From assembly GCA_015487165.1 (NCBI GenBank), contig WFQE01000022.1, forward strand, positions 1 to 64,000: DNA of 64,000 bases, written 5' to 3'. Of the stretch, positions 42,610 through 59,410 are shown one piece after another. Source of the stretch: Paracoccaceae bacterium. Lineage in GTDB: Bacteria > Pseudomonadota > Alphaproteobacteria > Rhodobacterales > Rhodobacteraceae. How positions within the stretch are numbered: position 1 is the first letter of the stretch; the number at the start of each line of letters is the position of its first letter. The translations under genes were made by a program, and so were the position numbers. Below the pieces are notes generated by a model, which was not told where the DNA came from, searched no databases, and worked only from the letters and a program-made list of their open reading frames with translations.

Positions 42610-43824
42610 ATGCCGAGCGTCGAGTTCGTCTTACCGCATTGGTTATACTGGTCGGGTCTGGTCATATTCCCGCTGATAGCCATGTATCTGTCGCGGCAGA
42701 TACAACCGACACCAGGGTCGCGTTCGATCGGTGTCGCTTATTTCATATGGTTGGTCGGGGGCTTGTTCGGCTTTCACCGGCTGTATCTCAAGAACAGGTG
42801 GGGTTTTTTATACTGGCCGCTTTTTGCCGTGATCCTGTATGCCAACGGGATCGAACGCGAGGTGCGCGTTGTCTACTCCGACGCTGTTGCCGCAGTCGAG
42901 GCAATCGACAAGTCAGTCGAGCGTTCCCAGGCCCGCATCAAGAAGGCCGATGCGATCATCGCGCGGACAAACAGCGCAATCGCAAAGCTGCCTGCCGATG
43001 ACGAACGTGCCCGCGCCCGGCTTGAGCGCAAGATCAAGAAGCAGGAAACACGCAAGCAAAAGGCAATCGCCAAGATCGCAGAGCTGAAGGCCGAGGTTCA
43101 AGGCCTGCGCCCCAAGATCGAAGAAGCATCAAAGCTGCGCGAAAAATGGTCTTACACGGCCTTTTACGCATTTCTGATCATCCTCGCCTTCATGGCCATC
43201 GACGCCATATTGATGCGCCGAATGCTGCGCCAGGCGCTGGAAAAACTGCGGGAACATCCGGATGACCCGATCGACCGCGAAATCCTGAAGGATGACCGCC
43301 TGCTGGCAGGAAAGGGCATCTTTGGCGCGATCGACCGTCTGTCGCTGTTCACGGGCGAATTTGTCGCCTTCTGGTCGGTGATCGCGGTGTTCGCCTATTA
43401 CTACGAGGTCATCGTGCGCTATGTCTTCAACTCTCCCACCAACTGGGTGCATGAGGGCATGTTCCTGATGTTCGGGATGCAATACATGATTGCGGGCGCC
43501 TATGCGATGCTGACCGAAAGCCATGTGCGCGTGGACATCTTCTATGCCAAGTTCAGCCCGCGCGGAAAGGCGATCACGGATCTCATCACCTCGGTCTTTT
43601 TCTTCATCTTTGCCGGCACGCTGCTGTGGACGGGCATGATCTTTGCGGCCGATTCCATTGGTCAGCACGAGGTCAGCTTTACCGAATGGGCAATCCAGTA
43701 CTGGCCGGTCAAGGTCACAATCGTCATTGGTGCCGCGCTGCTGATCCTGCAGGGCATATCAAAGCTGGCCAAGGACATATCACTCGTCTTTTCACCGGAA
43801 CGGGAGCTGACCAATGGGTCTTGA
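42610..43824 (+). CDS. TRAP small permease with N-terminal TM2 domain and coiled coil
   Basis: A 404-residue protein, at least twice the usual DctQ length. Residues about 15-80 form two membrane helices with GGLFGFHRLYLKNRWG, the pattern of a TM2 domain. Residues 95-175 are a strongly charged coiled coil (Lys/Glu/Ala/Arg heptads). A third helix lies at about 180-200. The C-terminal part (about 240-395) is a standard DctQ with four helices. The gene overlaps the DctM gene by eleven bases, so this fused form is the small subunit of the transporter. What the extra half does is unknown. Confidence 0.88.
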   Translation: MPSVEFVLPHWLYWSGLVIFPLIAMYLSRQIQPTPGSRSIGVAYFIWLVGGLFGFHRLYLKNRWGFLYWPLFAVILYANGIEREVRVVYSDAVAAVEAIDKSVERSQARIKKADAIIARTNSAIAKLPADDERARARLERKIKKQETRKQKAIAKIAELKAEVQGLRPKIEEASKLREKWSYTAFYAFLIILAFMAIDAILMRRMLRQALEKLREHPDDPIDREILKDDRLLAGKGIFGAIDRLSLFTGEFVAFWSVIAVFAYYYEVIVRYVFNSPTNWVHEGMFLMFGMQYMIAGAYAMLTESHVRVDIFYAKFSPRGKAITDLITSVFFFIFAGTLLWTGMIFAADSIGQHEVSFTEWAIQYWPVKVTIVIGAALLILQGISKLAKDISLVFSPERELTNGS

Positions 43825-45277: not shown

Positions 45278-45775
45278 TCAGGTTTCGCCACCGGCAGGGT
45301 GGTCGGGGGTCGCATGTATGGCGACCTGTTCGATGCGTGCGTCCTGGGGGCTGATGATGCGAAAGCTTTCGCGCACGCCTGCCTCGGTAAGTTCGCGCAT
45401 GACGGTCAGCAAGGTGTTTTCATCATGCTCGGCGCAAAGATCAGCCATGTGCTCCAGCTCTTCGCGTGCGACGGGTGTTGCCGCGTCGATACTTGGCGCG
45501 CCCCAGTAGGTCACGAAATGGCTGGCCAGCCCGTGAACCAGCGACTCGAACTCGTCAGCCGTGATCCGGGTCACTGCAACAAAGGTCACGCGGCCAAAGC
45601 TTTCCAGCCCGAGCCAGCCATTGGCAAAGGCCTGGCGGGCCTTGCCGACAAGATCGGCCTCGGTCCAGTTGGAAAACTCGAACCCGCCGCTGATGGCCCA
45701 TTCCCCGGTTCGTGCCGGGTTGTGAAATATCTGCGTGTCGCTTTCGTCCAGGTGAATGGCGCGGGCAAGTTTCAT
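45278..45775 (-). CDS. DUF6505-type small protein
   Basis: A 165-residue soluble acidic protein with the family-like start KLARAIHLDESDTQIF and the central WTEADLVGKARQAFANGWLG. No enzyme motif is visible. It overlaps the upstream lipoate-ligase-like gene by four bases and sits in the four-gene unit DUF6494-mrp-ligase-like-DUF6505, next to the formate dehydrogenase genes. Its function is unknown; a maturation role is possible from context. Confidence 0.75.
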   Translation of the reverse strand: MKLARAIHLDESDTQIFHNPARTGEWAISGGFEFSNWTEADLVGKARQAFANGWLGLESFGRVTFVAVTRITADEFESLVHGLASHFVTYWGAPSIDAATPVAREELEHMADLCAEHDENTLLTVMRELTEAGVRESFRIISPQDARIEQVAIHATPDHPAGGET

Positions 45776-46518
45776 GTCGGTTTTTCCCCTTCAAGGCGCG
45801 ATGACAGGGGTACCACGATGGTTTCCCTGCCTTGCCGCAGCAACATGCCGAAATTTTCGTCCACCCCCACGAATGTTCCGGCAAGGGGGGCTGTGTGGTG
45901 GTTGACCTCGATATCCTTGCCGATTTCCTCGACCAGCCCGCGCCATTGCTCGTGCAACTGGGCGCGCTCGCTGCCCTCAAGGGCGTTAAGCCAGACCAGA
46001 GAATGCCGCGACCAGCTTTCCAGCAGCCGGATGGGAGAGACCTCGCCGCAGCCTTCCTGATACAGCGAGGTCTTGTCCGGTGTCAGGCCGGGGTCGTCCT
46101 CGGAAGCGGGGATCAACTGCAACTCCAGCCCGATCACCAGCCAGTCGGGCACAGCGTCTGCGTCCGTGGTCGAGGCGGCCACGCGCAGGCGGCCGCATTC
46201 GGCGCCGTTGACCTTGATCAGGCCATCCCATGTCAGGTGAACGGCGACCTCGGGCGGGGCAAGCGCGCCAAGGGCATTCTGAAAGCCCACGGCGCAGGCA
46301 ATCATTGCCGCCATGGCCGATTCAAGCGGTTCTTCCGGGGCAAGGACGATTGCCGCGCGCAGCCGGTCCGGGGTGATATTGTGAACGACAAGCCCCGCAT
46401 CAACCCCAAGCACCGCCTGCGCACGGGCCTTGTCAAAGGGATCGACCCCTGCAACCGCCAGCCCTGACAAGAGCGGGGGAAAGCTGGGCCCTGCCTCGAT
46501 TTCGAATTCATCGGTCAT
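45772..46518 (-). CDS. biotin/lipoate-protein ligase family protein
   Basis: A 248-residue protein with the fold signature of the biotin/lipoate ligase family, including the region LTWDGLIKVNGAECGRLRVA and a C-terminal SH3-like domain (about 195-240, APLAGTFVGVDENFGMLLRQ). The classical biotin-binding GRGRxG motif is not seen, so it may not be a normal ligase. It is coupled by overlaps to mrp upstream and DUF6505 downstream. Confidence 0.78.
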   Translation of the reverse strand: MTDEFEIEAGPSFPPLLSGLAVAGVDPFDKARAQAVLGVDAGLVVHNITPDRLRAAIVLAPEEPLESAMAAMIACAVGFQNALGALAPPEVAVHLTWDGLIKVNGAECGRLRVAASTTDADAVPDWLVIGLELQLIPASEDDPGLTPDKTSLYQEGCGEVSPIRLLESWSRHSLVWLNALEGSERAQLHEQWRGLVEEIGKDIEVNHHTAPLAGTFVGVDENFGMLLRQGRETIVVPLSSRLEGEKPT

Positions 46519-47588
46519 CAGACATGTCCTGCGTCGATCAATCCACGGGCAAGCGCGCGAAAGGCCTGGGCGGGTGCGCTGTCGGGATTCGAGGCCACGA
46601 TCGGGGCGCCGCCATCGGATGCGCGCCGGATGTCCAGATGCAGTGGCAGTTCGGCCAACAGCGGCACACCGATCTTTTCGGCCTCGTCGCGAACGCCGCC
46701 ATGGCCAAAGGTGTGTTCCTCGTGTCCGCAGTTGGAACAGATATGCGTGGACATGTTTTCGATCATCCCCAGGATGGTGACACCCATCTTGTTGAACATG
46801 TCAATCCCCTTGCGCGCATCCAGCAGCGCCACATCCTGGGGGGTCGATACGATGATTGCCCCGGTCAGTTCCGCCTTTTGCGACAATGTCATCTGGACGT
46901 CGCCTGTGCCCGGCGGCAGGTCGACAAGCAGCACGTCGAGCTGGCCCCACTGCACCTGGCTGAGCATCTGTTGCAGTGCACCCATCAGCATCGGGCCACG
47001 CCAGACGACGGCCTCGTCGTCGCGGGTCATCAGGCCGATCGACATCATGGTGACCCCGTGGTTTCGCAGCGGCAGGATGGTCTTGCCGTCGGGCGATGCC
47101 GGCCGACCCGAGATGCCCAGCATGCGCGGCTGCGACGGGCCAAAGACGTCGGCGTCCAGCAGGCCGACGCGCCGCCCCTCGGCCGCCAGTGCAACGGCCA
47201 GATTGACGGAAACCGTCGATTTTCCGACCCCGCCCTTGCCTGATGCTATGGCGATGATGTGCTTGACGCCGGGGATCTTTTGCGGGCCTTTTGCCGCGGC
47301 CGGTTTGGCCCCACCCTTTAGGTCGGGCGGCGGCGGGGGCGCGCTATGCGCAGTCATCACGACCGAGACCTGATCAACCCCGGCAATGGCTTTGATCGCC
47401 TCTTGGGCGGCAGTGCGCACGGGCTCCAGTGTTTTCGCATGAACCGGATCGACCTCCAGCACAAAACGAACATTGTGCCCCTCGACGACCAGTGCGCGCA
47501 CCATTCCCGCCGAAACGATATCATTGCCGCTGATGGGGTCGCTGATTGCGCCCAGTGCCTTGAGGATGTCTTGTCTTGCGATGCTCAT
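46518..47588 (-). CDS. apbC: Mrp/ApbC-type iron-sulfur carrier ATPase
   Basis: A 356-residue P-loop NTPase that carries and delivers [4Fe-4S] clusters. It has an N-terminal MIP18-like domain (about 1-85) and a deviant Walker [10 protein letters not shown] near residue 118. The CSNC motif in [17 protein letters not shown] is the cluster-binding CxxC. The ATG at 47588 is chosen over a start 23 codons upstream because it begins the conserved first domain. Placement near formate dehydrogenase, a multi-cluster enzyme, is suggestive. Confidence 0.9.
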
Positions 47589-47610
47589 GTGCCGTGGCTC
47601 CTGCGATGGT

Positions 47611-47811
47611 TCATTCAGCCCCCTTGATGCGACCCTCGACCACATGTTCAAGATCAAGTTCGTCGATGCTCAGCACGACGCGGGCGGTGAATTCCCGGCC
47701 GCGGGTCGCCTCTGGCCCGGCCTTGCGCATGGCCTCTTCGATGGCTTGCTGCGAGGTCACGCCGACCTGTTTCAGAAACTTGCGCATCGTCATGTTGAAA
47801 TCTTCGCTCAT
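47611..47811 (-). CDS. DUF6494-type small protein
   Basis: A 66-residue helical protein ([20 protein letters not shown] at the start, ending [13 protein letters not shown]) of the DUF6494 type, a family without known function. It lies 22 bases upstream of mrp in the same orientation and is the first gene of the unit. The size and absence of cysteines suggest a small adaptor. Confidence 0.75.
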
Positions 47812-47897: not shown

Positions 47898-48662
47898 ATG
47901 CGGAAACTCGGAATTCTTGTGCTTGTTCTGTCGGCTCTTGCCGGGGCTCGTCTGTCCGCACAGTCTGGCAGGCTTGTTGTGGCTGCTGATCAGCAGCTGA
48001 TCGAAAGCGGTTTCACGGCTTTCGTGATCCCGCGTTTTGCCCTCAAGACCGGGATTGCCGTTTCCGTTCACGCAATCGGGCCGGGTAGTGATGCTGCCAG
48101 TGTCAGGATTGTCGCCGGCGCCGGCCAAGGGATGGCCGTCTTCGAGGGGTTCGGGCGGATCTATTCGCTGGTGATGGCAGAGGATGCACCACCCCAGGCA
48201 ACCCGATTTGCCGCATGGATGCGTTCCGGGGTGGGTGGGCGCACCATCGCGCAGTTTCGGTATGACGGCAAACAGGTCTTCAAACCCGTCGAACAGGCCC
48301 TGGCGGCACTGGAACCGACCGTGTTCAAGGGTAATGCTGTGCGCGGGGAACGGTTGGCTTACGCAAATTGCGGGCGATGCCATGTCATCGGCGCCAGGAA
48401 CCGGATGAAGGGGATCGGCTCGACCCCGTCCTTTGGCGCGCTCAGGGCGTTGAAGGATTGGCAAGAAAGGTTTCAGACCTTCTATGTGCGCAACCCCCAT
48501 CCGGCGGTGGTTCAGGTTGCGGATATCACCATGCCGTTTTCGGCTGCGCGCCCGACGCCGATGCATCCGGTCGAAATCACGCAGGACGAATTGCATGACA
48601 TCCTTGCCTTTGTCGCCGCGCTCGAGCCGGCGGATCTGGGGGCCCCGATCCGGCATCAGTGA
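47898..48662 (+). CDS. periplasmic fusion: reduced TupA-like domain and cytochrome c
   Basis: A 254-residue exported protein (signal peptide about 1-22). Residues about 25-63 resemble the start of TupA/ModA-type oxyanion receptors (ESGFTAFVIPRFALKTGIAV), and residues 102-130 resemble their end (RFAAWMRSGVGGRTIAQFRY, DGKQVFKP). The central lobe is nearly absent. Residues about 145-245 are a monoheme cytochrome c with CGRCH at 158-162 and a likely axial Met in DITMPF. The ATG at 47898 starts the signal peptide; one 12 codons upstream is in frame. It lies within the formate dehydrogenase locus and ends overlapping the converging ferredoxin gene by seven bases. Confidence 0.7.
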   Translation: MRKLGILVLVLSALAGARLSAQSGRLVVAADQQLIESGFTAFVIPRFALKTGIAVSVHAIGPGSDAASVRIVAGAGQGMAVFEGFGRIYSLVMAEDAPPQATRFAAWMRSGVGGRTIAQFRYDGKQVFKPVEQALAALEPTVFKGNAVRGERLAYANCGRCHVIGARNRMKGIGSTPSFGALRALKDWQERFQTFYVRNPHPAVVQVADITMPFSAARPTPMHPVEITQDELHDILAFVAALEPADLGAPIRHQ

Positions 48663-50620
48663 TCCCGGCGTTTCTTGCCATCAAGGTAATCTTCGGTTGT
48701 CATGACCTGCGGGCGCTCGGCCCCGCGCAAGGGGCTGTCCTTGCTGTGATACTGGGCCTGTACACGGCAGTCGTCGCACATCTGGATCATGCGCGCGCTT
48801 TGCGATGTTGCGAACATCGCATGTTTGCCGGCAAGCTGATCCATGATCCGATCGATCGTCGACTTCACACCAAATGGCTTGCCGCATTCGACGCATTCGA
48901 AAGGCTCTTCCTCGTGCAGGATGCGCTGGGCAAGTGCGGCGTCGGAAAGATCAAGCTGTGGTTCAAGGGTAATGGCCTTTTCGGGGCAGGCATTGCGGCA
49001 GATTCCGCATTGCAGGCAGGCATCTTCCTGAAAGCGCAGCTGGGGCTGGTCGGGGTTGTCGCCAAGCGCCCCGGTGGGGCAGAGCGAGACACAGGCCAGG
49101 CACAAGGTGCAGGCATCGGAATTTATCACCACCGCACCATAGGGGGCGTTGGGTGGCAGTGGCACCGGCGCGTCGGCCTGACCCAGGATCGCGCTTGCGG
49201 CCAGTCGGGTGATCTGCCGGCGGCTGCCCATGGGCAATATGGGGGTGCAGAGCGGGGTCAGGGGGGCGGGTTCGCGTAGCGCATCGGCCAATAGCTGGGG
49301 GTCGTTCAGGTCAAGCAGCCGAATGCGGCCCGTGCCGGCAATGGCCTCGGCCAGCGCAACCTCGCCCTCGATGATGTCGCGCTCGGAATCGGGGGCCAGA
49401 AGGATATCGACCGAGGGAAAACCGGCGGCCAGCGCGGCCAGCATTTCCGCATGCCCAAAGCCTGCCAGAGTTGCGGTTTCAAGGGGGATCACATCTGGTG
49501 GCAAACCGCGGTCAAACCGTGCGCAAAGGGCGATCATCTCGGCCCCGTGACCGCTATCGTGAACCAGCAGCCTCGGGTTTTTTCCGCCTGCGTTTTCATA
49601 TGTTTGCGACAGGGTCTTCAGGCGCCGGAACAGGAATTCCCCGGCAGGTGCATCATATGTGATGGCCCCCGATGGGCAAAGCGCCGAACACGCGCCGCAG
49701 CCGGCACACACCGCGGCATCAACCGAAACATATTCGCCGTCTGGCGACAGCGCGCCGGTGGGGCAGGCATCCACGCATTTCGAACATCCCGTGATACCGG
49801 CCCGGGAATGGGCGCAAAGTGGCTGGCTGAGCTTGATATGGAAAGGCTTGTCAAATTCTCCGACCAGCTGGGATGCCTCGAAGGTCGCACGGGCAACAGC
49901 CAGCGGATCACCGGGGTCGGCGTGGACATAGCCGTCTCTTTTGTGTCCGGCCGGGAAAAGGGTTTGTCCTTTCCGCAGATCAAGAATGATATCGCATTCG
50001 GTATGCGCACCGTCACGGGGTTCGGTCAGTCCGAATGTGCCGCGCCCGGCCGGGTTGACCTGCTGCAAGGCGTCTATCTGAACGGTGAAATTGCCCAGCG
50101 CACCGCTTGCCAGCCCAAGCTTTCCGACCACGATTTCAAACCGGCGATCCAGCGGGATTTCGTCGATTGTTTCCACCAGTACGGTAACCGCCAGACTGTC
50201 GGCCAGTTGCGTGGCCACGGGTATTACTGTTTCCGGATCGCCAACAATCAGGCAGCGCCCTTCCGAGTGCAGATCAAGCAGTTTCGTCGCTGGCCTTTCC
50301 AGCAGAGAATCCGCTACAAGCGCCGCCATTTTCGGGGTGGCTTCCTGGCCCTCATCCGTCCATCCGGCCCGGTCCCTGATGTCGATGAAATCCAATATGT
50401 CGTGCCCGGATTCCTCGGTGATCTCCTGAAATATTTCACGTTCCTGCTGACAGGCGATGATTGCGTTGCCCTTGGCAATTTCCGCCGCCGCCGCGTCCAG
50501 CTGTGATACGCACAGATTCGTGTAAACGCGCGAACACTGCACACCGGCAGAGGCTTCAATGCTGTCCTTGTCGATCTTCTGACTTCCAAGACAGTCGCAT
50601 AGAATCAATCGTTTAGGCAT
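48656..50620 (-). CDS. multi-cluster 4Fe-4S ferredoxin protein of the formate dehydrogenase locus
   Basis: A 654-residue cytoplasmic protein with four ferredoxin-type clusters: two near residues 272-315 (CSKCVDACPTGAL, CAGCGACSALCPSGAI) and two near 500-555 (CTLCLACVSLCPTGAL, CLQCGICRNACPEKAI). A C-terminal pair of CxxC motifs is also present (ECVECGKPFG, MCDDCR). The N-terminal 200 residues carry further cysteines (LCDCLGS, LCVSQ) and may bind another cofactor. Proteins of this kind accompany FDH/DUF3305/DUF3306/TorD clusters in many proteobacteria. It is divergent from DUF3305. Confidence 0.88.
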   Translation of the reverse strand: MPKRLILCDCLGSQKIDKDSIEASAGVQCSRVYTNLCVSQLDAAAAEIAKGNAIIACQQEREIFQEITEESGHDILDFIDIRDRAGWTDEGQEATPKMAALVADSLLERPATKLLDLHSEGRCLIVGDPETVIPVATQLADSLAVTVLVETIDEIPLDRRFEIVVGKLGLASGALGNFTVQIDALQQVNPAGRGTFGLTEPRDGAHTECDIILDLRKGQTLFPAGHKRDGYVHADPGDPLAVARATFEASQLVGEFDKPFHIKLSQPLCAHSRAGITGCSKCVDACPTGALSPDGEYVSVDAAVCAGCGACSALCPSGAITYDAPAGEFLFRRLKTLSQTYENAGGKNPRLLVHDSGHGAEMIALCARFDRGLPPDVIPLETATLAGFGHAEMLAALAAGFPSVDILLAPDSERDIIEGEVALAEAIAGTGRIRLLDLNDPQLLADALREPAPLTPLCTPILPMGSRRQITRLAASAILGQADAPVPLPPNAPYGAVVINSDACTLCLACVSLCPTGALGDNPDQPQLRFQEDACLQCGICRNACPEKAITLEPQLDLSDAALAQRILHEEEPFECVECGKPFGVKSTIDRIMDQLAGKHAMFATSQSARMIQMCDDCRVQAQYHSKDSPLRGAERPQVMTTEDYLDGKKRRDH

Positions 50621-50858: not shown

Positions 50859-50989
50859 AGTTTTTCCGCGCCGGTCAGAACGAAAACACCGGCAAGTGCG
50901 AAATCATTTGATCGGGGGTCGAGAAGCACACATTCTTGTGAAGGAAAAGCGCATCAGGGTCAGCTTTGCGGCATGGGATAGGAGTTGAA

Positions 50990-51553
50990 ATGGAAACAGC
51001 GAGCATTTCGATGCCGCTCGGGATTGTCGTAAGAAAATCGCCGGGTGTCACCCGTTGGGCCGGTTGGGTCTGGCGGGTGGTCGGTGTTCTTCCTGCTGCG
51101 CGCAACGAAACCTGGAAAGAGTTGCGACGCGAGGGCGAGGCGGTCGAATATCATGCCGCAACCGTCGATCTTGAACTGCACCGGACCGAGGCCGAGGCCT
51201 ATGTTGCCGAGCTATCCACACAATCGCCTTCGGTTTACGTGATCATGCGCGAGGGCGAGGATCCCGGCACTGTCGAGGATATCGAGATCGTTCTGGCCAC
51301 CGTGTCGCCCTTTGAGGCGCAGGATTATGCCGATACCGGCGAAGAGCTGGTCGAGCCGGTGCCCATGCCCCCGGCCCTGCGTGAATGGGTTCAGGATTTC
51401 GTCGAAACCCATCACCAGCAAAAGGAATTCATCAAGCGCCGGCGCGACAAGAAGCGCGTCGATCTGGTCGAGGACGGGGTTGGCGATCCGCGCATTTCCC
51501 AGCCAAGCGATGTATACCGCGCGCCCGGCCGCAAACGTGGGGTGGTCCAGTGA
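50990..51553 (+). CDS. DUF3305 protein, formate dehydrogenase accessory
   Basis: A 187-residue soluble protein of the DUF3305 family (start SISMPLGIVVRKSPGVTRWA with GWVWRVVGVLP), found almost only in gene clusters with formate dehydrogenases. AGGAG precedes the ATG at 50990. The C-terminus is basic (EFIKRRRDKKRVD). First gene of the rightward FDH operon, ending in a one-base overlap with DUF3306. Its biochemical role is not established. Confidence 0.88.
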   Translation: METASISMPLGIVVRKSPGVTRWAGWVWRVVGVLPAARNETWKELRREGEAVEYHAATVDLELHRTEAEAYVAELSTQSPSVYVIMREGEDPGTVEDIEIVLATVSPFEAQDYADTGEELVEPVPMPPALREWVQDFVETHHQQKEFIKRRRDKKRVDLVEDGVGDPRISQPSDVYRAPGRKRGVVQ

Positions 51554-52167
51554 TGTCAGCAACAGACCGGCCGGCAGACAAGCCCCTTGACGCGTGGTCG
51601 CGTCGCAAGGCCCGTGTGCGCGCGGAAGAAGAGGCCCTCGCCCGGCGCAAAGCCCAGGCCGAGACCCAGCGCCAGCAGGCGGCGCTTGCCGAAAAGACGG
51701 ATGAAGAGATCCTGGCCGAGCTGAACCTTCCCGATCCTGACAGCCTCAAGACCGGCGACGACATCGCGGGTTTCATGCAGGCGACAATCCCCGAACGTCT
51801 GCGCAGGCGGGCCCTGCGCAAGTTGTGGACACTCAACCCCGTGCTGGCCAATGTCGATGGCCTGGTTGACTATGGCGAGGATTTCACCGGTAAGGGTGCG
51901 GTCGGCGAAGTGATCGAGACGATCTACAAGGTCGGTCGCGGCATGCTGGGCGATATCAAAGACGACGACGCCCCTGTTGTGGCAGCTCCCGCAGAAGAAC
52001 AGCCCGTCGAGCAAGCGGATGATCTGGATGAACCGGATGACTCTGCCACAGATTCCGAGCCTCACGCAGATACCGCGCCCGCCTCGCTTGTCGAAGAGGC
52101 AGCGATACAGCGGCGCCCCCGGCGCATGCGTTTTTCCTTTGACGATACCCTTCCAGACGGAACCTGA
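51553..52167 (+). CDS. DUF3306 protein, formate dehydrogenase accessory
   Basis: A 204-residue soluble protein: a charged helical N-terminus (residues 10-55), the conserved DUF3306 core (about 55-135, DDIAGFMQATIPERLRRRAL, KLWTLNPVLANVDGLVDYGE), and an acidic low-complexity tail. DUF3306 genes consistently follow DUF3305 in FDH clusters. The start overlaps the DUF3305 stop by one base (TGATG), as expected for coupled genes. Confidence 0.88.
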   Translation: MSATDRPADKPLDAWSRRKARVRAEEEALARRKAQAETQRQQAALAEKTDEEILAELNLPDPDSLKTGDDIAGFMQATIPERLRRRALRKLWTLNPVLANVDGLVDYGEDFTGKGAVGEVIETIYKVGRGMLGDIKDDDAPVVAAPAEEQPVEQADDLDEPDDSATDSEPHADTAPASLVEEAAIQRRPRRMRFSFDDTLPDGT

Positions 52168-52170
52168 CAG

Positions 52171-52779
52171 ATGATGGCCATGACCACAGAAACCGACATC
52201 CCCGAAGAGGACCGCCTGCGCGCGGATTTCTACGATTTCCTGGGCGCGCTTCTGGCGGGGCCACCTGACAAGGCGCTTTTGAAAAAGACCGCGGCGCTTG
52301 GCGGAGACGACAGCCCTCTGGGGCAAGCGGTCAGCGCCATGGCGCGGGTGGCGGCGATTTCCAACCCGACCGGGGTCGAGCGCGAATTCACCGCGTTGTT
52401 CATCGGTGTTGGGCGCGGCGAATTGCTACCCTATGCCAGCTATTACCTGACCGGCTTTCTGAACGAAAAGCCGCTTGCAGTGTTGCGCAAGGAAATGGCC
52501 GCGCTGTGCATCACGCGCGCGCCCAATGTGTTCGAACCCGAAGACAATATCGCGTCGCTGTTCGAGATGATGGCCGGAATGATCACCGGGCGTTTCGGCA
52601 AGCCGGTGCCGCTGGCCCGTCAGGCCGAATTCTTCAACCGCCATATCGGCCCCTGGGCCGAACATTTCTTTGCCGATCTCGAGGGGGCCGAAAACTCGGT
52701 CTTTTACGCATCTGTGGGTGCGGCGGGAAAGGCATTCATCGAGATCGAGCGCGAGGCCTTCCGCATGGCGGCGGGCTGA
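52171..52779 (+). CDS. TorD-family molybdoenzyme chaperone
   Basis: A 202-residue all-helical protein of the TorD/DmsD family, which holds the Tat-dependent molybdoenzyme until its cofactor is inserted. Typical features are RADFYDFLGALLAGPPD near the N-terminus, the FTALFIGVGRGELLPYASYY block and EPEDNIASLFEMMAGMI. Located directly before the Tat protein and FDH alpha genes, its client should be that catalytic subunit. Three in-frame ATGs (52171, 52174, 52180) could start it. Confidence 0.88.
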   Translation: MMAMTTETDIPEEDRLRADFYDFLGALLAGPPDKALLKKTAALGGDDSPLGQAVSAMARVAAISNPTGVEREFTALFIGVGRGELLPYASYYLTGFLNEKPLAVLRKEMAALCITRAPNVFEPEDNIASLFEMMAGMITGRFGKPVPLARQAEFFNRHIGPWAEHFFADLEGAENSVFYASVGAAGKAFIEIEREAFRMAAG

Positions 52780-52855
52780 ACGCACGAGAGGGGCATCCCT
52801 GGGGGGAGACCCGAACAACCGCCCTGCAAAGGGCACATCAACAGGAGGAAGAGAG

Positions 52856-53050
52856 ATGAGCGAAAAGGAAAAGGAAGGCGCGCCCAGCCGCCGCGACTTT
52901 CTCAAGCTCGCTTCGGTTTCCGCACCGGCGGCGGTGGCAGCCACCGCCCTGGCCACGACCGAAGCCGAGGCCGAGACGGCCCGAACCGGCGAGGGGGGGA
53001 TGCGGGATACCGCACATATCCGCGCCTATCTGGACAGCGCCCGCTTTTGA
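52856..53050 (+). CDS. small twin-arginine protein of the formate dehydrogenase locus
   Basis: A 64-residue protein with the twin-arginine motif PSRRDFLKLAS (about 10-20), a weakly hydrophobic Ala-rich stretch and a mature part of only some 25 residues. GGAGGAAGAGAG precedes the ATG. Short 'formate dehydrogenase region Tat target' proteins occupy this position in related clusters. It might be an export partner of FDH or a decoy for the chaperone; neither is shown. Confidence 0.8.
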   Translation: MSEKEKEGAPSRRDFLKLASVSAPAAVAATALATTEAEAETARTGEGGMRDTAHIRAYLDSARF

Positions 53051-53159: not shown

Positions 53160-56054
53160 ATGCTCAGGAAAAAAACCAACGGGGTTGCGAGACGCCCCCA
53201 GCGGACAAGTCTCCTGTCAGAACTGGCCGAGAAATCGGTTGACCGGCGCGCGTTCCTGCGCGGCTCGGGTCTTGCCATCGGCGGGCTGGCCGCCATCGGT
53301 GCGACCGGCGGAACAGTTACCCGCGCATCGGCCCAGCAGGCCGTCAAGGGCGCAGTCGATACGATCAAGACCGTCTGCACCCATTGCTCGGTCGGCTGTA
53401 CGGTTATTGCCGAGGTCGATAACGGCGTCTGGGTCGGGCAGGAACCCGGCTGGGACAGCCCGTTCAACCTTGGGGCCCATTGTGCCAAGGGTGCCTCGGT
53501 ACGTGAACACGCCCATGGCGAACGCCGCCTGAAATACCCGATGAAGAAAGAAGGCGGTGTCTGGAAGCGCATCAGCTGGGAACAGGCGATCAACGAGATC
53601 GGCGACAAGATGCTGAAGATCCGCGAAGAAAGCGGCCCCGATAGCGTCTATTGGCTGGGCAGCGCCAAGCACAGCAACGAACAGGCCTATCTGTTCCGCA
53701 AGTTCGCCGCCTATTGGGGCACCAACAACGTCGATCACCAGGCACGGATCTGCCATTCGACCACGGTTGCGGGTGTTGCCAATACATGGGGCTACGGCGC
53801 CATGACCAACAGCTATAACGACATCCACAACAGCCGCGCGATGATCCTGTTCGGCTCGAACCCGGCCGAGGCGCATCCGGTGTCGCTGTTGCATATCCTC
53901 AAGGCCAAGGAACAGAACAACGCGCCGTTGATCGTGGTCGATCCGCGGTTTACGCGCACGGCGGCGCACGCCGACGAATATGTGCGTATCCGCCCCGGCA
54001 CCGATGTTGCCGTGATCTGGGGTATCCTTTGGCACATCTTCGAAAATGGCTGGGAAGACAAGGAATTCATCCGCACCCGTGTCTACGGCATGGACGAGAT
54101 CCGCGCCGAGGTGAAGAAATGGACCCCGGATGAGGTCGAGCGCGTCACCGGCGTGCCCGGCAGCCAGATGGAGCGCGTCGCCCGCACGCTGGCCAACAAC
54201 CGCCCCGGCACGCTGATCTGGTGCATGGGCGGCACCCAGCACCATATCGGCAACAACAACACCCGCGCCTACTGCATCCTGCAGCTTGCACTTGGCAACA
54301 TGGCGCGCGCCGGTGGCGGGGCCAACATTTTCCGCGGCCATGACAATGTGCAGGGCGCGACGGATGTCTGCGTTCTCAGCCACAGCCTGCCCGGCTATTA
54401 CGGCCTGTCGGGTGGCGCATGGGCACATTGGGCCCGCGTCTGGGAAGAGGATCTCGATTGGCTCAAGGGCCGGTTCGACAAGCTCAAGACCAAGGACGGC
54501 AAGGAAAAGTCCCTGATGAACCTCAAGGGCATTCCTGTCAGCCGTTGGATTGATGGCGTGCTTGAGAAGAAGGACAATATCGACCAGCCCGACAATGTGC
54601 GTGCGATGGTTCTGTGGGGCCATGCGCCCAACTCGCAGACCCGCGGCGTCGAGATGAAAAAGGCGATGGAGATGCTCGACCTGCTGGTCGTGGTTGACCC
54701 CTATCCGACAGTCTCGGCCGTCATGCATGACCGCACCGACGGGGTGTATCTGCTGCCCGCCTCGACCCAGTTCGAGACCCGCGGCTCGGTCACCGCTTCG
54801 AACCGTTCGGTGCAGTGGCGTGACAAGGTTGTCGAACCCCTGTTCGAAAGCCTGCCGGATCACGTCATCATGGCCAAGTTCGCCAAGAAGCTGGGCTTTG
54901 CCGACCGTCTGTTCCGCAATATCAGCATGGACGGCGAGGACGAGCCAAATGTCGAGGACATCCTGCGCGAGATCAATCGCGGCATGTGGACCATCGGTTA
55001 TACCGGCTGGGCGCCCGAGCGCATCAAGGCGCATATGAAGTACCAGCACACCTTTGACCGGACCACGCTCCAAGCCGTGGGTGGCCCGCTTGACGGTGAA
55101 TATTACGGCCTGCCGTGGCCGTGCTGGGGCACGCCCGAAATGAAACACCCGGGCACGCCGATCCTTTATGACATGAGCAAACCCGTCGCCAAGGGCGGCC
55201 TGACCTTCCGCGCCCGCTTTGGCGTTGAGAGAAACGGCGTCAACCTGCTGGCCGAGGGGGTGTATTCGCAGGGCTCGGAAATCAAGGATGGCTACCCCGA
55301 GTTCACCATGGCGATGCTCAAGCAGCTTGGCTGGGACAAGGATCTGACCGACGAGGAACGCGCCACCATCGAAAAGATCGCCGGCGACAAGACCAACTGG
55401 AAGACCGACCTTTCGGGCGGCATCCAGCGCGTCGCGATCAAGCATGGCTGCGCCCCCTTCGGCAACGCCAAGGCGCGTGCCGTGGTCTGGACCTTCCCCG
55501 ACCCGGTGCCTGTTCACCGCGAGCCGCTATACACCCCGCGGCGCGACCTTGTGGCGGATTATCCGACCTACAAGGACAAGCGGGCCTATCGTCTGCCCAC
55601 GCTTTATGAATCGATCCAGAAACAGGATTTCAGCAAGGATTATCCCATGATCCTGACATCCGGTCGCTTGGTCGAATACGAAGGCGGTGGCGACGAGACG
55701 CGTTCGAACCCCTGGCTGGCCGAGCTTCAGCAAGAGATGTTTGCGGAAATCCATCCGCGTGATGCCAATAATCTGGGTATCCGCGATGGTCAGGACATCT
55801 GGGTCGAGGGCGCCGAAGGGGCCAAGGTCAAGGTCAAGGCGATGGTCACCCGTCGGGTCGGCGAAGGCGTTGTCTTCATGCCGTTCCACTTTGGCGGTCA
55901 TTTCCAGGGCAAGGACCTGCGGGACAAATATCCCGACGGGGCCGACCCCTATGTGCTTGGCGAAGCGGCCAACACGGCGATGACCTATGGCTATGACAGC
56001 GTGACCCAGATGCAGGAGACGAAAGTCACCCTGTGCAAGGTCACCGCAGCGTAA
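53160..56054 (+). CDS. fdhA: formate dehydrogenase alpha subunit (Mo/W, cysteine type, Tat-exported)
   Basis: A 964-residue catalytic subunit oxidising formate to carbon dioxide. The Tat motif DRRAFLRGSG is at residues 28-37. Cys73, Cys76, Cys80 and Cys108 bind the proximal [4Fe-4S] cluster. Cys199 in QARICHSTTVAGV is the expected metal ligand, so the enzyme uses cysteine, not selenocysteine. Conserved molybdopterin guanine dinucleotide regions follow, ending in the typical C-terminal barrel (VMPFHFGGH-like). AAAAGGGAG precedes the ATG. The Tat signal and cytochrome b subunit place the active site in the periplasm. Confidence 0.95.
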   Translation: MLRKKTNGVARRPQRTSLLSELAEKSVDRRAFLRGSGLAIGGLAAIGATGGTVTRASAQQAVKGAVDTIKTVCTHCSVGCTVIAEVDNGVWVGQEPGWDSPFNLGAHCAKGASVREHAHGERRLKYPMKKEGGVWKRISWEQAINEIGDKMLKIREESGPDSVYWLGSAKHSNEQAYLFRKFAAYWGTNNVDHQARICHSTTVAGVANTWGYGAMTNSYNDIHNSRAMILFGSNPAEAHPVSLLHILKAKEQNNAPLIVVDPRFTRTAAHADEYVRIRPGTDVAVIWGILWHIFENGWEDKEFIRTRVYGMDEIRAEVKKWTPDEVERVTGVPGSQMERVARTLANNRPGTLIWCMGGTQHHIGNNNTRAYCILQLALGNMARAGGGANIFRGHDNVQGATDVCVLSHSLPGYYGLSGGAWAHWARVWEEDLDWLKGRFDKLKTKDGKEKSLMNLKGIPVSRWIDGVLEKKDNIDQPDNVRAMVLWGHAPNSQTRGVEMKKAMEMLDLLVVVDPYPTVSAVMHDRTDGVYLLPASTQFETRGSVTASNRSVQWRDKVVEPLFESLPDHVIMAKFAKKLGFADRLFRNISMDGEDEPNVEDILREINRGMWTIGYTGWAPERIKAHMKYQHTFDRTTLQAVGGPLDGEYYGLPWPCWGTPEMKHPGTPILYDMSKPVAKGGLTFRARFGVERNGVNLLAEGVYSQGSEIKDGYPEFTMAMLKQLGWDKDLTDEERATIEKIAGDKTNWKTDLSGGIQRVAIKHGCAPFGNAKARAVVWTFPDPVPVHREPLYTPRRDLVADYPTYKDKRAYRLPTLYESIQKQDFSKDYPMILTSGRLVEYEGGGDETRSNPWLAELQQEMFAEIHPRDANNLGIRDGQDIWVEGAEGAKVKVKAMVTRRVGEGVVFMPFHFGGHFQGKDLRDKYPDGADPYVLGEAANTAMTYGYDSVTQMQETKVTLCKVTAA
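53181..53199 (+). repeat. 19-bp near-perfect direct repeat, copy 2 (fdhA codons 8-14)
   Basis: GGGGTTGCGAGACGCCCCC lies inside the fdhA leader-peptide codons and matches copy 1 at 53072-53090 at 18 of 19 bases. Confidence 0.5.
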
Positions 56055-56065
56055 GGAGAAAAAAC

Positions 56066-56659
56066 ATGGCACGAATGAAATTTCTTTGTGACGCCGAACG
56101 CTGCATCGAGTGCAACGCCTGTGTCACCGCCTGCAAGAACGAGCACGAGGTTCCCTGGGGTATCAACCGGCGGCGGGTCGTCACCATCAATGACGGCACA
56201 CCGGGGGAACGGTCGATCTCGATCGCCTGCATGCATTGTTCCGATGCACCCTGCATGGCGGTCTGCCCGGTAGACGTGTTCTACCAGACCCCCGACGGTG
56301 TGGTGCTGCATTCCAAGGATCTGTGCATCGGTTGCGGTTACTGCTTTTACGCATGCCCCTTTGGCGCGCCGCAGTATCCGCAGGCCGGCAATTTCGGCAG
56401 CCGCGGCAAGATGGACAAGTGCACCTTCTGCAACGGTGGCCCGGAAGAGGACATGTCGCAGGCCGAGTTCCAGAAATACGGCCGCAACCGGATCGCCGAG
56501 GGCAAGCTGCCCATCTGCGCCGAAATGTGTGCGACCAAGGCCCTGCTGGCGGGCGATGGCGACGTGGTGTCAGCCATCTACCGCGAGCGCGTCGTCGCGC
56601 GCGGCTTTGGCTCGGGCGCCTGGGGCTGGGGCACGGCCTATGGCCAGAAGGGCGGCTGA
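56066..56659 (+). CDS. fdh3B: formate dehydrogenase iron-sulfur (beta) subunit
   Basis: A 197-residue electron-transfer subunit with four [4Fe-4S] clusters: CIECNACVTACKNEHEVP, CMHCSDAPCMAVCP, CIGCGYCFYACPFGAPQ, plus CTFCNGG with a later CAEMCATKAL. It passes electrons from the catalytic subunit to the membrane cytochrome b. It follows fdhA by 11 bases with AAGGAGAAAAAAC before the ATG. It has no own signal, so it is exported bound to the alpha subunit. Confidence 0.94.
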   Translation: MARMKFLCDAERCIECNACVTACKNEHEVPWGINRRRVVTINDGTPGERSISIACMHCSDAPCMAVCPVDVFYQTPDGVVLHSKDLCIGCGYCFYACPFGAPQYPQAGNFGSRGKMDKCTFCNGGPEEDMSQAEFQKYGRNRIAEGKLPICAEMCATKALLAGDGDVVSAIYRERVVARGFGSGAWGWGTAYGQKGG

Positions 56660-56789: not shown

Positions 56790-58001
56790 ATGTGGTTCAC
56801 CCGCATGGCCGCCGTCATGCTGAGCGTTGCCCTGCTTGCGGGAACCAGCGCTCCGGCGGTTTCACAGAATTCGGACAACACGCGCGCGGCAACCGGTGGT
56901 GCGCAGACGCTTGAAGACATACTTGCCCGGCAGAAGGGCCTGAAGGTGGACAGCCGGTTCCGCAGTTCGCAAATAGGTTCGCCTGACGCGGCCCAACCGG
57001 CAACGGCACCGCTGGGCACATTGGGGGGCGCGTCGGATGCCGATGTCTTTCGCGCACTTCGATACGGCAAGGCGCGGCTGACCTCGACAGTCCCCGGAGA
57101 GCTGGGAAAGGTTGTCATTCAGGATGGAGGCATGCGCTGGCTTGAATTCAGGCGTGGGCCGCTGCCCAGATATGGCGGCTTTGCGCTGGTTGCGGTGATC
57201 GTCCTGCTGGCGCTGTTCTATTCGATCCGCGGTCGCATTCGTCTGGACGGCAAGCCGGCGGGGCGAACCATCGTGCGTTTCAAGACCCTTGAACGCATCG
57301 GCCACTGGTCGATGGCCATTCCTTTCGTCGTTCTTGCATTGACGGGGTTGACCCTGACCTTTGGCCGTGTCGCGCTGATCCCCGTTCTGGGCAAACCTGC
57401 CTTTTCGCTGGTCGCGGCCGGGGGGAAATATCTGCACCATTATCTTGCCTGGGTTTTCATGTTCGGGCTGGTGCTTAGCGCAGCTCTGTGGATATGGGAC
57501 AACATTCCCGCGCGCCATGATCTGAAATGGCTGATGCGGGCAGGCGGGTTGCTGACCAAGGGCGTTCATCCCCCCGCGGGCAAGTTCAACGCCGGTGAAA
57601 AGATCCTGTTCTGGATTGTCATCCTGTTTGGTCTGATCGTCTCGCTGACCGGCCTGTCATTGCTGTTCCCATACAGCATCGACATCGTGACGCCGGTGCT
57701 TGGCGTGTTCGACAGGCTCGGTTTGGCCGACGTACTGGGCTTTGGGGTGACTGAAGGGACATTCACGCCGCAGGAACAGATGCAGATTGCGCAGCTCTGG
57801 CATGCGGTTGTCGCCTTTGCCTTCATGGCCGTGATCCTGGGGCACATATATATCGGCACGATCGGCATGGAGGGTGCGCTTGACGCCATGACCAAGGGCG
57901 AGGTTGATATAGAGTGGGCGAAGGAGCATCATGACCTCTGGTATGAAGAGGTTGTTTCCGCCGAATCCGACAAGCGGGGGGCAGAAACGCCCGCCGAATG
58001 A
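56790..58001 (+). CDS. fdhC: formate dehydrogenase cytochrome b (gamma) subunit
   Basis: A 403-residue membrane subunit that anchors the enzyme and passes electrons to quinone. Residues 1-26 look like a signal peptide or first helix. A periplasmic stretch follows (about 27-130), then five membrane helices (about 137-385) with heme-ligand His candidates in FKTLERIGHWSMAIPFVVLA, KYLHHYLAWVFMFGLVLSAA and IAQLWHAVVAFAFMAVILGH. The ATG at 56790 is preferred to an in-frame ATG at 56751 inside the hairpin. Its stop overlaps the regulator gene by four bases. Confidence 0.92.
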   Translation: MWFTRMAAVMLSVALLAGTSAPAVSQNSDNTRAATGGAQTLEDILARQKGLKVDSRFRSSQIGSPDAAQPATAPLGTLGGASDADVFRALRYGKARLTSTVPGELGKVVIQDGGMRWLEFRRGPLPRYGGFALVAVIVLLALFYSIRGRIRLDGKPAGRTIVRFKTLERIGHWSMAIPFVVLALTGLTLTFGRVALIPVLGKPAFSLVAAGGKYLHHYLAWVFMFGLVLSAALWIWDNIPARHDLKWLMRAGGLLTKGVHPPAGKFNAGEKILFWIVILFGLIVSLTGLSLLFPYSIDIVTPVLGVFDRLGLADVLGFGVTEGTFTPQEQMQIAQLWHAVVAFAFMAVILGHIYIGTIGMEGALDAMTKGEVDIEWAKEHHDLWYEEVVSAESDKRGAETPAE

Positions 58002-59410
58002 GGGGCCCGCTCTGCATGGCCGTAACACGAAAGATCGATATGCCCCCCGGGGCAGCAGGACAATCCGGGGCAGAGTTCGGCCCCGGGCTGGCCTCGTCAT
58101 CGATTCTGGTCGTCGATGACGAACCGGGCATGCGAAACTTTCTGGTCAAGATCCTGACCCCGCGCTGCAAGAAGGTGGAACAGGCCGCCAATGTCGAAGA
58201 GGCCTCGCGTGCGCTGGATAGATCGCATTTCGATATTGTCATCCTCGACAATGTGATGCCGGGCAAGTCCGGGTTGGAATGGCTGCACGAGCAACGCAAG
58301 GTCGGTTTTTTTGCCGATGCGATCCTGATCACCGCCTTTGCCGATCTGGAAACCGCAATTCAGGCCTTGCGGGCCGGCGCGGCGGATTTCGTGCTGAAAC
58401 CGTTCCGTTCAAACCAGATCCTGAATGCTGTTGCCCGCAGTATCGACAGGCAGCATCTGCGTCGTGAAAACTATCTGCTGAAATATGAATTGTCGGCCGA
58501 TGCGACCGCCGGTCGGGGACGGCTGCTTGGCCGTTCACAGGTGATTTCCGATATTCGCACCATGCTGGAAAGGGTAGCCTCGGCACCGACCCCGGTGCTG
58601 TTCACCGGCGACAGCGGCACCGGCAAGGAAATCGCGGCACGCACCCTTCACGCCATGTCTGACCGGGCGGACAAGCCGTTCGTGCCGGTGAACTGTGCGG
58701 CGGTGTCGCCTGACGCCATTGCCAACGAGCTGTTCGGATCTATTTCGGGCGGGTTTGATGGCAATGATGATCGTCGCGATGGCCTGCTGTTTCACGCCCG
58801 CGGCGGAACGCTGTTCTTTGACGAAATCAGGGAAATGCCCCTGTCTGTTCAGGCGACCCTGCTGCGGGTGATCGAGGAAATGCGCATTCGCCCCATCGGT
58901 TCTGCCCGCGAGGTGCCACTGAACCTGCGCCTGATGTTTGCAACCAACGCCGACCTTGAAGAAGCCGTGAAAGAGGGTCATTTCCGCAAGGACCTGTTCC
59001 ACCGGATCAATGTTCTGAACATCCGCATGCCGCGCTTGGCCGAGCGCAAGGAAGACATCTTTGATCTGGCGTCCATGTTCATGAAAAAGCTGTCGCATGA
59101 ATTGGGCGTTCCCCCGCTGCCTCTGCCCGAAGGGGTGCTGATCAAGATGGCCTGCTATGACTGGCCGGGCAATGTGCGCGAGCTGCGCAACCTGATCGAG
59201 CGGTCCTTGATCCTTGGGGAATATCCACCCGAATTCTGCGACGCCAACGAATGTGAATCGCCCGAAGCGGTGGATTCCCTGCAGGCAGTCGAGCGTCGCC
59301 ACATTCTGGCGGTTCTCGAAGCATGCAACGGAAACCGGGCCGAGGCCGCGCGGCGTCTTGGCGTCTCACGCAAGACCATCGACCGAAAATGCGCGATGTG
59401 GAATGTCTGA
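57998..59410 (+). CDS. NtrC-type response regulator lacking the GAFTGA loop
   Basis: A 470-residue regulator: receiver domain with Asp40/Asp41 and phosphorylation site Asp84 (IVILDNVMPGKSG), AAA+ domain with Walker A GDSGTGKE (204-211) and Walker B GGTLFFDEI (269-277), and a Fis-type helix-turn-helix (about 440-465, EAARRLGVSRKTIDRKC). The loop that contacts sigma-54, normally GAFTGA, reads GGFDGN at 251-256. Such degenerate loops occur in relatives that activate sigma-70 promoters, like Rhodobacter capsulatus NtrC. Co-transcription with FDH suggests it controls this locus. Confidence 0.9.
   Translation: MRGPLCMAVTRKIDMPPGAAGQSGAEFGPGLASSSILVVDDEPGMRNFLVKILTPRCKKVEQAANVEEASRALDRSHFDIVILDNVMPGKSGLEWLHEQRKVGFFADAILITAFADLETAIQALRAGAADFVLKPFRSNQILNAVARSIDRQHLRRENYLLKYELSADATAGRGRLLGRSQVISDIRTMLERVASAPTPVLFTGDSGTGKEIAARTLHAMSDRADKPFVPVNCAAVSPDAIANELFGSISGGFDGNDDRRDGLLFHARGGTLFFDEIREMPLSVQATLLRVIEEMRIRPIGSAREVPLNLRLMFATNADLEEAVKEGHFRKDLFHRINVLNIRMPRLAERKEDIFDLASMFMKKLSHELGVPPLPLPEGVLIKMACYDWPGNVRELRNLIERSLILGEYPPEFCDANECESPEAVDSLQAVERRHILAVLEACNGNRAEAARRLGVSRKTIDRKCAMWNV

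Follow-up and report, generated by a model that had tools for sequence, protein, structure and literature searches.

The window, meaning the whole stretch of 64,000 nucleotides that was analysed, carries a locus for a formate dehydrogenase (FDH) and, within it, a gene whose product joins part of a tungstate receptor to a cytochrome (Table 1). The open reading frame of this gene is real, and it encodes 254 residues followed by a stop. The gene faces away from the small gene and the Mrp-type ATPase on one side and runs tail to tail into the gene for the multi-[4Fe-4S] protein on the other, beyond which lie the genes for DUF3305, DUF3306, the chaperone and the three subunits of the enzyme. A promoter and terminator scan gave one promoter-like match upstream of the fusion gene and was otherwise uninformative, and a Pfam search with part of the small gene (47611..47811) gave no match. 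The locus is of the same operon type as the FDH loci with TorD, DUF3305 and DUF3306 described in PMC4464133, the excerpted text of which mentions neither the fusion nor a standalone cytochrome. The gene order is the same in Sagittula, where the enzyme carries FDH3 names and the fusion is annotated as 'hypothetical protein'; in Sulfitobacter the fusion is annotated as 'c-type cytochrome', and genes for an ABC permease, an ATPase and a substrate-binding protein adjoin the DUF6505 gene. The Cache-domain kinase and sigma-54 regulator that follow the FDH genes are a possible sensor of formate or C1 compounds, and several relatives (L111, L167, L172, L173 and L182) likewise have a sigma-54 regulator next to FDH. 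Further upstream in the window (42610-43824, forward strand) is a TRAP DctQ subunit whose 404 aa include, ahead of the DctQ domain, a long additional part where TM2 and DUF4407 give weak matches below their cut-offs.

Table 1. The fusion-protein gene, the parts of its product and the neighbouring genes, with positions in the window.
Feature	Position	Strand	Basis
DUF6505 protein	45278..45775	-	PF20115, 5.9e-80
Biotin/lipoate ligase-like protein with DUF4444	45772..46518	-	PF16917, 1.5e-69
Mrp/NBP35-type Fe-S carrier ATPase (ORF limits)	46518..47657	-	PF10609, 4.7e-100; neighbour in relatives too
Small gene, called DUF6494 by position	47611..47811	-	Reading frame; Sagittula same-slot annotation
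Fusion protein gene	47898..48662	+	ORF; homologs in 133/390 genomes of the order, two with the cytochrome half only
Signal peptide, residues 1-21	47898..47960	+	By eye: hydrophobic start ending LSAQ
TupA lobe A, lobe B deleted, oxyanion motif lost; residues 23-133	47964..48296	+	Model, profile and PDB searches
Monoheme c-type cytochrome domain, residues 142-254	48321..48659	+	PF00034 and standalone homologs
Heme attachment motif CGRCH, residues 158-162	48369..48383	+	C158, R160, C161 and H162 invariant in 49/49
His201 of NPHP motif, candidate distal heme ligand	48498..48500	+	His in 49/49 fusions
654-aa multi-[4Fe-4S] protein	48656..50620	-	Tail to tail with the fusion gene, 7-base overlap
DUF3305	50966..51553	+	PF11749, 2.8e-41
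DUF3306 (ORF limits)	51385..52167	+	PF11748, 1.1e-19
TorD/NarJ-type chaperone	52171..52779	+	PF02613, 1.9e-26
Small twin-arginine signal protein	52856..53050	+	SRRDFLKLAS in ORF 52670-53050; Sagittula same-slot annotation
FDH alpha subunit (FdhA), twin-arginine signal by eye	53160..56054	+	PF00384, 2e-48; Sagittula slot is FDH alpha
FDH beta subunit, 4Fe-4S	56069..56659	+	Same slot annotated FDH3 beta in Sagittula
FDH gamma subunit, cytochrome b561	56793..58001	+	PF01292, 1.3e-23
Sigma-54 response regulator and Cache-domain histidine kinase, after the FDH genes	58013-61457	+	

The fusion protein has a two-part build, a TupA lobe followed by a monoheme cytochrome c, and from its start it is probably exported to the periplasm. 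It is under purifying selection, with a dN/dS of 0.133 relative to the nearest relative (L001), 0.246 in the lobe and 0.056 in the cytochrome, and 22 residues are invariant across 49 aligned fusions. As the earlier note had supposed, a protein of this build does not appear to have been described: none was found in the open-licence literature, searched by titles and the beginnings of abstracts, among the matches listed.

The first part had been described from the letters as a shrunken TupA-like domain with its middle missing, and this is borne out by both structure and sequence. AlphaFold2, run on five sequences, models blocks of residues 21-130 at pLDDT 72-92, and the best VIA match of the model is the TupA structure 5my5 (Z 16.2, 1.8 Å, 111 residues, 22% identity), with residues 23..133 of the model aligned onto residues 2..251 of the 5my5 chain. 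Next come 3cvg (Z 14.0), 3muq (13.2) and ModA structures (up to 12.5); 3lr1, the other TupA structure, scores only 12.3, level with ModA. The resemblance to periplasmic binding proteins that had been suspected was thus recovered by structure prediction, with 5my5 also at the top of a Foldseek search with the full model, but only at E 3.9e-3, there being nothing in that search at E <= 0.001. A search of all PDB chains with a sequence profile, free of any model, placed 3muq (9.6e-5), 3cvg (0.0055), 5my5 (0.0061) and 3lr1 (0.012) on top; of these, 5my5 and 3lr1 bear the name TupA in their titles, 3cvg carries the label 'putative metal binding protein', and 3muq is grouped with TupA structures in the excerpted text of PMC5517513. 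A profile of residues 23-134 matched both ends, in order, of 30/30 TupA loci (full E 5.7e-15 to 3e-5, Z 1000), as against 2/25 ModA loci (E 0.08 and 0.5) and 0/25 PstS loci, in a control for which the loci were picked by family models, only frames of at least 200 aa were used and the PstS matches were all below their own family cut-off. The weakest of the 30 TupA loci was the window genome's own TupA (L098). When the full profile was run against whole genomes, it likewise matched TupA-sized frames from further families and classes at both of their ends, and those tested (L065, L068-L071, L073) are TupA by tblastn, being 45-50% identical to the TupA of the window genome.

Family models and profile-profile alignment are less telling. 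NCBIfam TupA is the family matched by most members (10/49, best 7.2e-5), and the window protein alone reaches E 0.042 against it; at 13.2 bits it falls below the NF041772 cut-off of 400 bits, which is however a weak criterion here, since 0/61 genomes of the window's family reach it. In hhalign, the lobe aligned with full TupA only over the first half (P 1.8e-4), with ModA over the last half (P 1.1e-3) and with PstS at 0.48, results given little weight because the TupA rows had ragged N-termini. Taken as a whole, the resemblance to the two ends of TupA, without the part between them, is genuine and exceeds chance. According to the portion of PMC5517513 consulted, lobe A of TupA is made up of residues 2-76 and 201-251 and lobe B of residues 91-200. 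The fusion protein shares with TupA (5my5, 3lr1; NF041772) the fold and sequence of lobe A, with both ends in order; it differs in lacking lobe B, and with it the two-lobed cleft, as no other stretch before the cytochrome could hold that lobe, in lacking the TTTS motif and in carrying a fused cytochrome. The TupA-like nature of the N-terminal part given in the earlier note therefore stands, while its extent of 105 residues is corrected to residues 23-133 (111 aa). Full-length tupA is encoded separately in all 27 sampled genomes that carry the fusion.

The second part is the monoheme cytochrome with CGRCH that had been read from the sequence, the motif lying at residues 158-162. Pfam PF00034 (Cytochrom_C) matches it with 21.6 bits against a gathering threshold of 21.3, and CxxCH together with this match would fit a class I c-type cytochrome; 24/49 members match Cytochrom_C at E <= 0.01. 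It shares CxxCH, the NPHP/RPHP region and the locus with the standalone monoheme cytochromes of FDH loci, which lack the TupA lobe. An alignment of 64 cytochrome domains was made from 50 fusions and 14 standalone proteins, the window's row being omitted as a copy (L005) with L001 as its stand-in. The heme His is present in 64/64 domains, as is the His in the PH motif. Three relatives that match the profile (L066, L067, L074) carry PHPxM, and the whole cytochrome group of the fusion differs from them in lacking this axial Met: it is present in 0/64 domains, with Phe in its place in 56/64. In the fusions alone the column holds Phe in 46/49, and in the window protein it holds Val204. Met170, eight residues past the heme His, is found in 38/49 fusions and 45/64 domains. 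His201 is a candidate rather than a proven axial ligand, since the three Met-bearing relatives share this His. In two standalone cytochromes (L107:9745-10032 and L187:9760-10047) a second His, in PHPAH and PHPVH respectively, stands where the PHPxM relatives have Met, a hint that the distal ligand may vary in this group. The cytochrome domain modelled alone reached pLDDT 43, and a profile of 16 cytochromes matched no PDB chain at E <= 0.01.

Homologs at E 1e-5 occur in 50/139 genera of the order, and among its 390 genomes 131 have the fusion, G110 and G227 having the cytochrome half only; in G204 the fusion is cut near a contig end, its match contains one stop, and the search for DUF3305 found nothing. 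A class-wide draw of 385 genomes gave 17 with a match at E 1e-10, comprising seven fusions (five from the window's family and two from family f156) and ten cytochromes alone. Fusion relatives are also present on five plasmid records (Sagittula, Tateyamaria and Sulfitobacter), and no relative was found in the viral contigs searched. Linkage was assessed systematically in 78 genomes, G227 and G204 being searched but excluded. In counts uncorrected for relatedness, DUF3305, a marker of the FDH locus, and TupA are both present in all 27 sampled genomes with the fusion, whereas of the 51 without it 14 have DUF3305 and 29 TupA (14 with both, 15 with TupA only and 22 with neither). The claim that the gene belongs to an FDH locus holds in the window, where the alpha, beta and gamma subunits are encoded, and in its relatives, as the fusion lies within 5 kb of DUF3305 in 26/27. 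The sole exception is G325, where DUF3305 is 236 kb away and the fusion is still accompanied by the genes for Mrp, the ligase-like protein and DUF6505 (L180). The earlier note had suggested looking for the same fusion near FDH genes, and a tblastn survey of 29 long fusion loci (L001-L004, L037-L054, L109-L111, L180, L181, L191, L192) bears the link out: leaving out L004 and L181, which end before the FDH side, FdhA is present in 25/27, the two without it being L180 and L192. The genes for DUF6505, the ligase-like protein and Mrp (45278-47811, reverse strand, in the window) stay with the fusion in these two stretches as well.

The link does not run equally in the other direction. Of the sampled genomes with DUF3305, 14/41 have no fusion. 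Eight of them (L166-L169, L172, L173, L176, L182), and likewise L183 (from G227, outside the sample), otherwise keep the FDH gene order, with no match to the fusion protein in the interval from Mrp to the 4Fe-4S gene. In the remaining six (L170, L171, L174, L175, L177, L178) FDH is more distant, with FdhA at 58-73%. The fusion protein is accessory and dispensable, since it is absent from so many genomes with DUF3305, often with the FDH order intact. Next to Mrp in that more distant clade lies a frame of ~420 aa that resembles a cytochrome and carries CAVCH (L171:8105-9379 and L174:1120-2382, both on the reverse strand).

Cytochromes without the lobe bear on where the fusion came from. Fourteen such loci were read in genomic context, and eight lie near FDH-locus genes: six with FdhA itself in the stretch (L105, L184, L186, L188, L189, L193), L106 with DUF3305, DUF3306, the 4Fe-4S protein and DUF6505, and L190 with no more than the genes for the 4Fe-4S and ligase-like proteins. 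In the six others (L035, L036, L107, L185, L187 and L194, the last cut at a contig start) no FDH-locus genes were found. TupA lies in the stretch of 6/14 (L105, L106, L188, L189, L190, L193), all of them among the eight FDH-linked ones, and in L106 the cytochrome, tupB, tupC and tupA follow one another on one strand. In L186 (family f172) a standalone cytochrome occupies exactly the slot of the fusion gene, between Mrp and the 4Fe-4S gene. Because standalone cytochromes stand near both FDH-locus genes and tupA, the fusion probably arose from a pair of genes that shared a locus. Its likely single origin would then have been the addition of lobe A of TupA, the full-length form of which (tupBCA) is often encoded in the same locus, to a small monoheme cytochrome c of the kind seen in FDH loci of other alphaproteobacterial families; the cytochrome would have been in the FDH locus first, and the lobe would have come later, probably once. 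In a cytochrome tree built on few columns and with many open forks, L035 and L036 nest among the fusions (97/88); because of this nesting they look like lobe losses, and they appear to have shed the lobe and left the FDH locus.

What the lobe can still do is constrained by its residues. The residues of TupA that bind the oxyanion are, in the available part of PMC5517513, T9-11, S12, H59, R118, T124 and D170, the TTTS motif lying in lobe A and R118, T124 and D170 opposite. This motif is found in 0/52 family proteins (49 distinct), as against STTS or VTTS in 27/31 anchor-found rows of TupA frames, the remaining four being anchor matches elsewhere; and in columns 65-80, near the place of His59 of TupA, no His is among the six commonest residues. 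The lobe thus seems to bind tungstate no longer. The earlier note had offered redox-dependent sensing or delivery of an oxyanion as one role of the protein, and with the motif gone in 52/52 such a role is unlikely. It was rejected as the main reading on account of the lost motif and the missing lobe B, and that the protein binds tungstate or molybdate at all, so as to sense or deliver it, is very improbable, the TupA relationship of the lobe and the FDH locus notwithstanding. The TupA of the window genome itself reads AVTTSF at the motif, and its tupBCA genes lie on another contig (L115, contig C71, 10-8070), after genes that by eye resemble those of a respiratory nitrate reductase.

A lobe that has lost its oxyanion motif might still dock on the permease TupB and regulate tungstate uptake for FDH in a redox-dependent manner, and the presence of TupA in 27/27 sampled fusion genomes speaks for this, as does its position within 20 kb of DUF3305 in 17/27. 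Nevertheless, such nearness is seen in 25/42 DUF3305 genomes overall and about as often without the fusion (8/15), so it is independent of the fusion; the tupBCA genes of the window genome are on a separate contig, and a single lobe would be missing half of the surface with which a receptor faces its permease. This is quite unlikely. We consider just as doubtful the broader idea that a one-lobed, heme-bearing descendant of TupA docks redox-dependently to the tungstate permease or to FDH and so makes the supply of tungsten, or the activation of the enzyme, depend on periplasmic redox state.

Other explanations assign the work to the cytochrome. The lobe could be a vestige that does nothing itself and is tolerated as a long stretch ahead of a cytochrome that works alone, which would suit the higher dN/dS of the lobe than of the cytochrome and the standalone cytochromes in the same slot (L186) or nested among fusions (L035/L036). 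Yet the lobe's dN/dS is well below 1, it has been retained in about 50 genera, and its residues G38, P45, R46, F47, K50, W107 and G113 are among those invariant in 49/49 fusions, which makes a mere remnant rather unlikely. Alternatively, a heme without its Met ligand might be a sensor or protective heme (for oxygen, NO or peroxide) serving FDH or the pair of Cache kinase and NtrC-type regulator, rather than an electron carrier; the loss of the PHPxM Met throughout the group, mostly to Phe, and the kinase and sigma-54 regulator genes after the FDH genes are consistent with such a function. It is improbable all the same, as the invariant His201 may ligate the heme and make it six-coordinate, as may Met170 where it is kept, and the kinase pair was seen in only some related loci.

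The reading that best accommodates these observations, to which we give a probability of about 0.5, is that the fusion protein serves the adjacent, apparently Tat-exported W/Mo FDH of the FDH3 type as an accessory redox partner in the periplasm. FdhA and the fusion protein both have export signals by eye. The lobe would act as a docking or adaptor surface and the heme would exchange electrons with FDH, with the outcome being either a route beside the path through cytochrome b and quinone or the reduction and activation of FDH. A soluble cytochrome is not required, because a cytochrome b gamma subunit already belongs to FDHs of this type; and the two fusion loci that lie apart from FDH with the Mrp side kept (L180, L192) count against a redox partner, as do the absence of the gene from 14/41 sampled DUF3305 genomes and the apparent departure of L035 and L036 from the FDH locus. 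Of the roles offered earlier, a periplasmic electron acceptor with a degenerate binding domain comes closest, inasmuch as a redox protein with a degenerate domain, be it acceptor or donor, fits best.

The nearest parallel in working is found in methanol dehydrogenases. As given in the excerpt of PMC9728263, MxaJ has a two-lobed periplasmic-binding-protein fold, and its role as an adaptor that links the dehydrogenase to the cytochrome is a proposal; in PMC7391723, also seen in part, mutants without xoxG or xoxJ match those without xoxF1 and xoxF2 in their growth on methanol when lanthanum is supplied. Common to MxaJ/MxaG, XoxJ/XoxG and the present case is a receptor-like protein and a cytochrome for one periplasmic dehydrogenase (going by the same parts of PMC9728263 and PMC7391723), and in the FDH loci the receptor-like part, the cytochrome and the dehydrogenase are likewise encoded together. 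The fusion protein would work like MxaJ, the receptor-like adaptor, and MxaG, the cytochrome, in one chain. Those partners are separate proteins, however, MxaJ is two-lobed and the enzyme is a different one; the comparison is one of working only.

Here, then, a transport receptor appears to have been reduced to one lobe and put to use as part of a redox protein, both of its likely parents being found in one kind of locus. The fusion, which public plasmid records of Roseobacteraceae name 'c-type cytochrome' or 'hypothetical protein', draws attention to a group of cytochromes, apparently unstudied, that is tied to W/Mo FDH in the Alphaproteobacteria, including the Roseobacteraceae, and it offers a case in which the idea of receptor-like adaptors of the MxaJ kind can be tested. 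If it is true that the protein passes electrons from formate, it would constitute a new branch of formate respiration.
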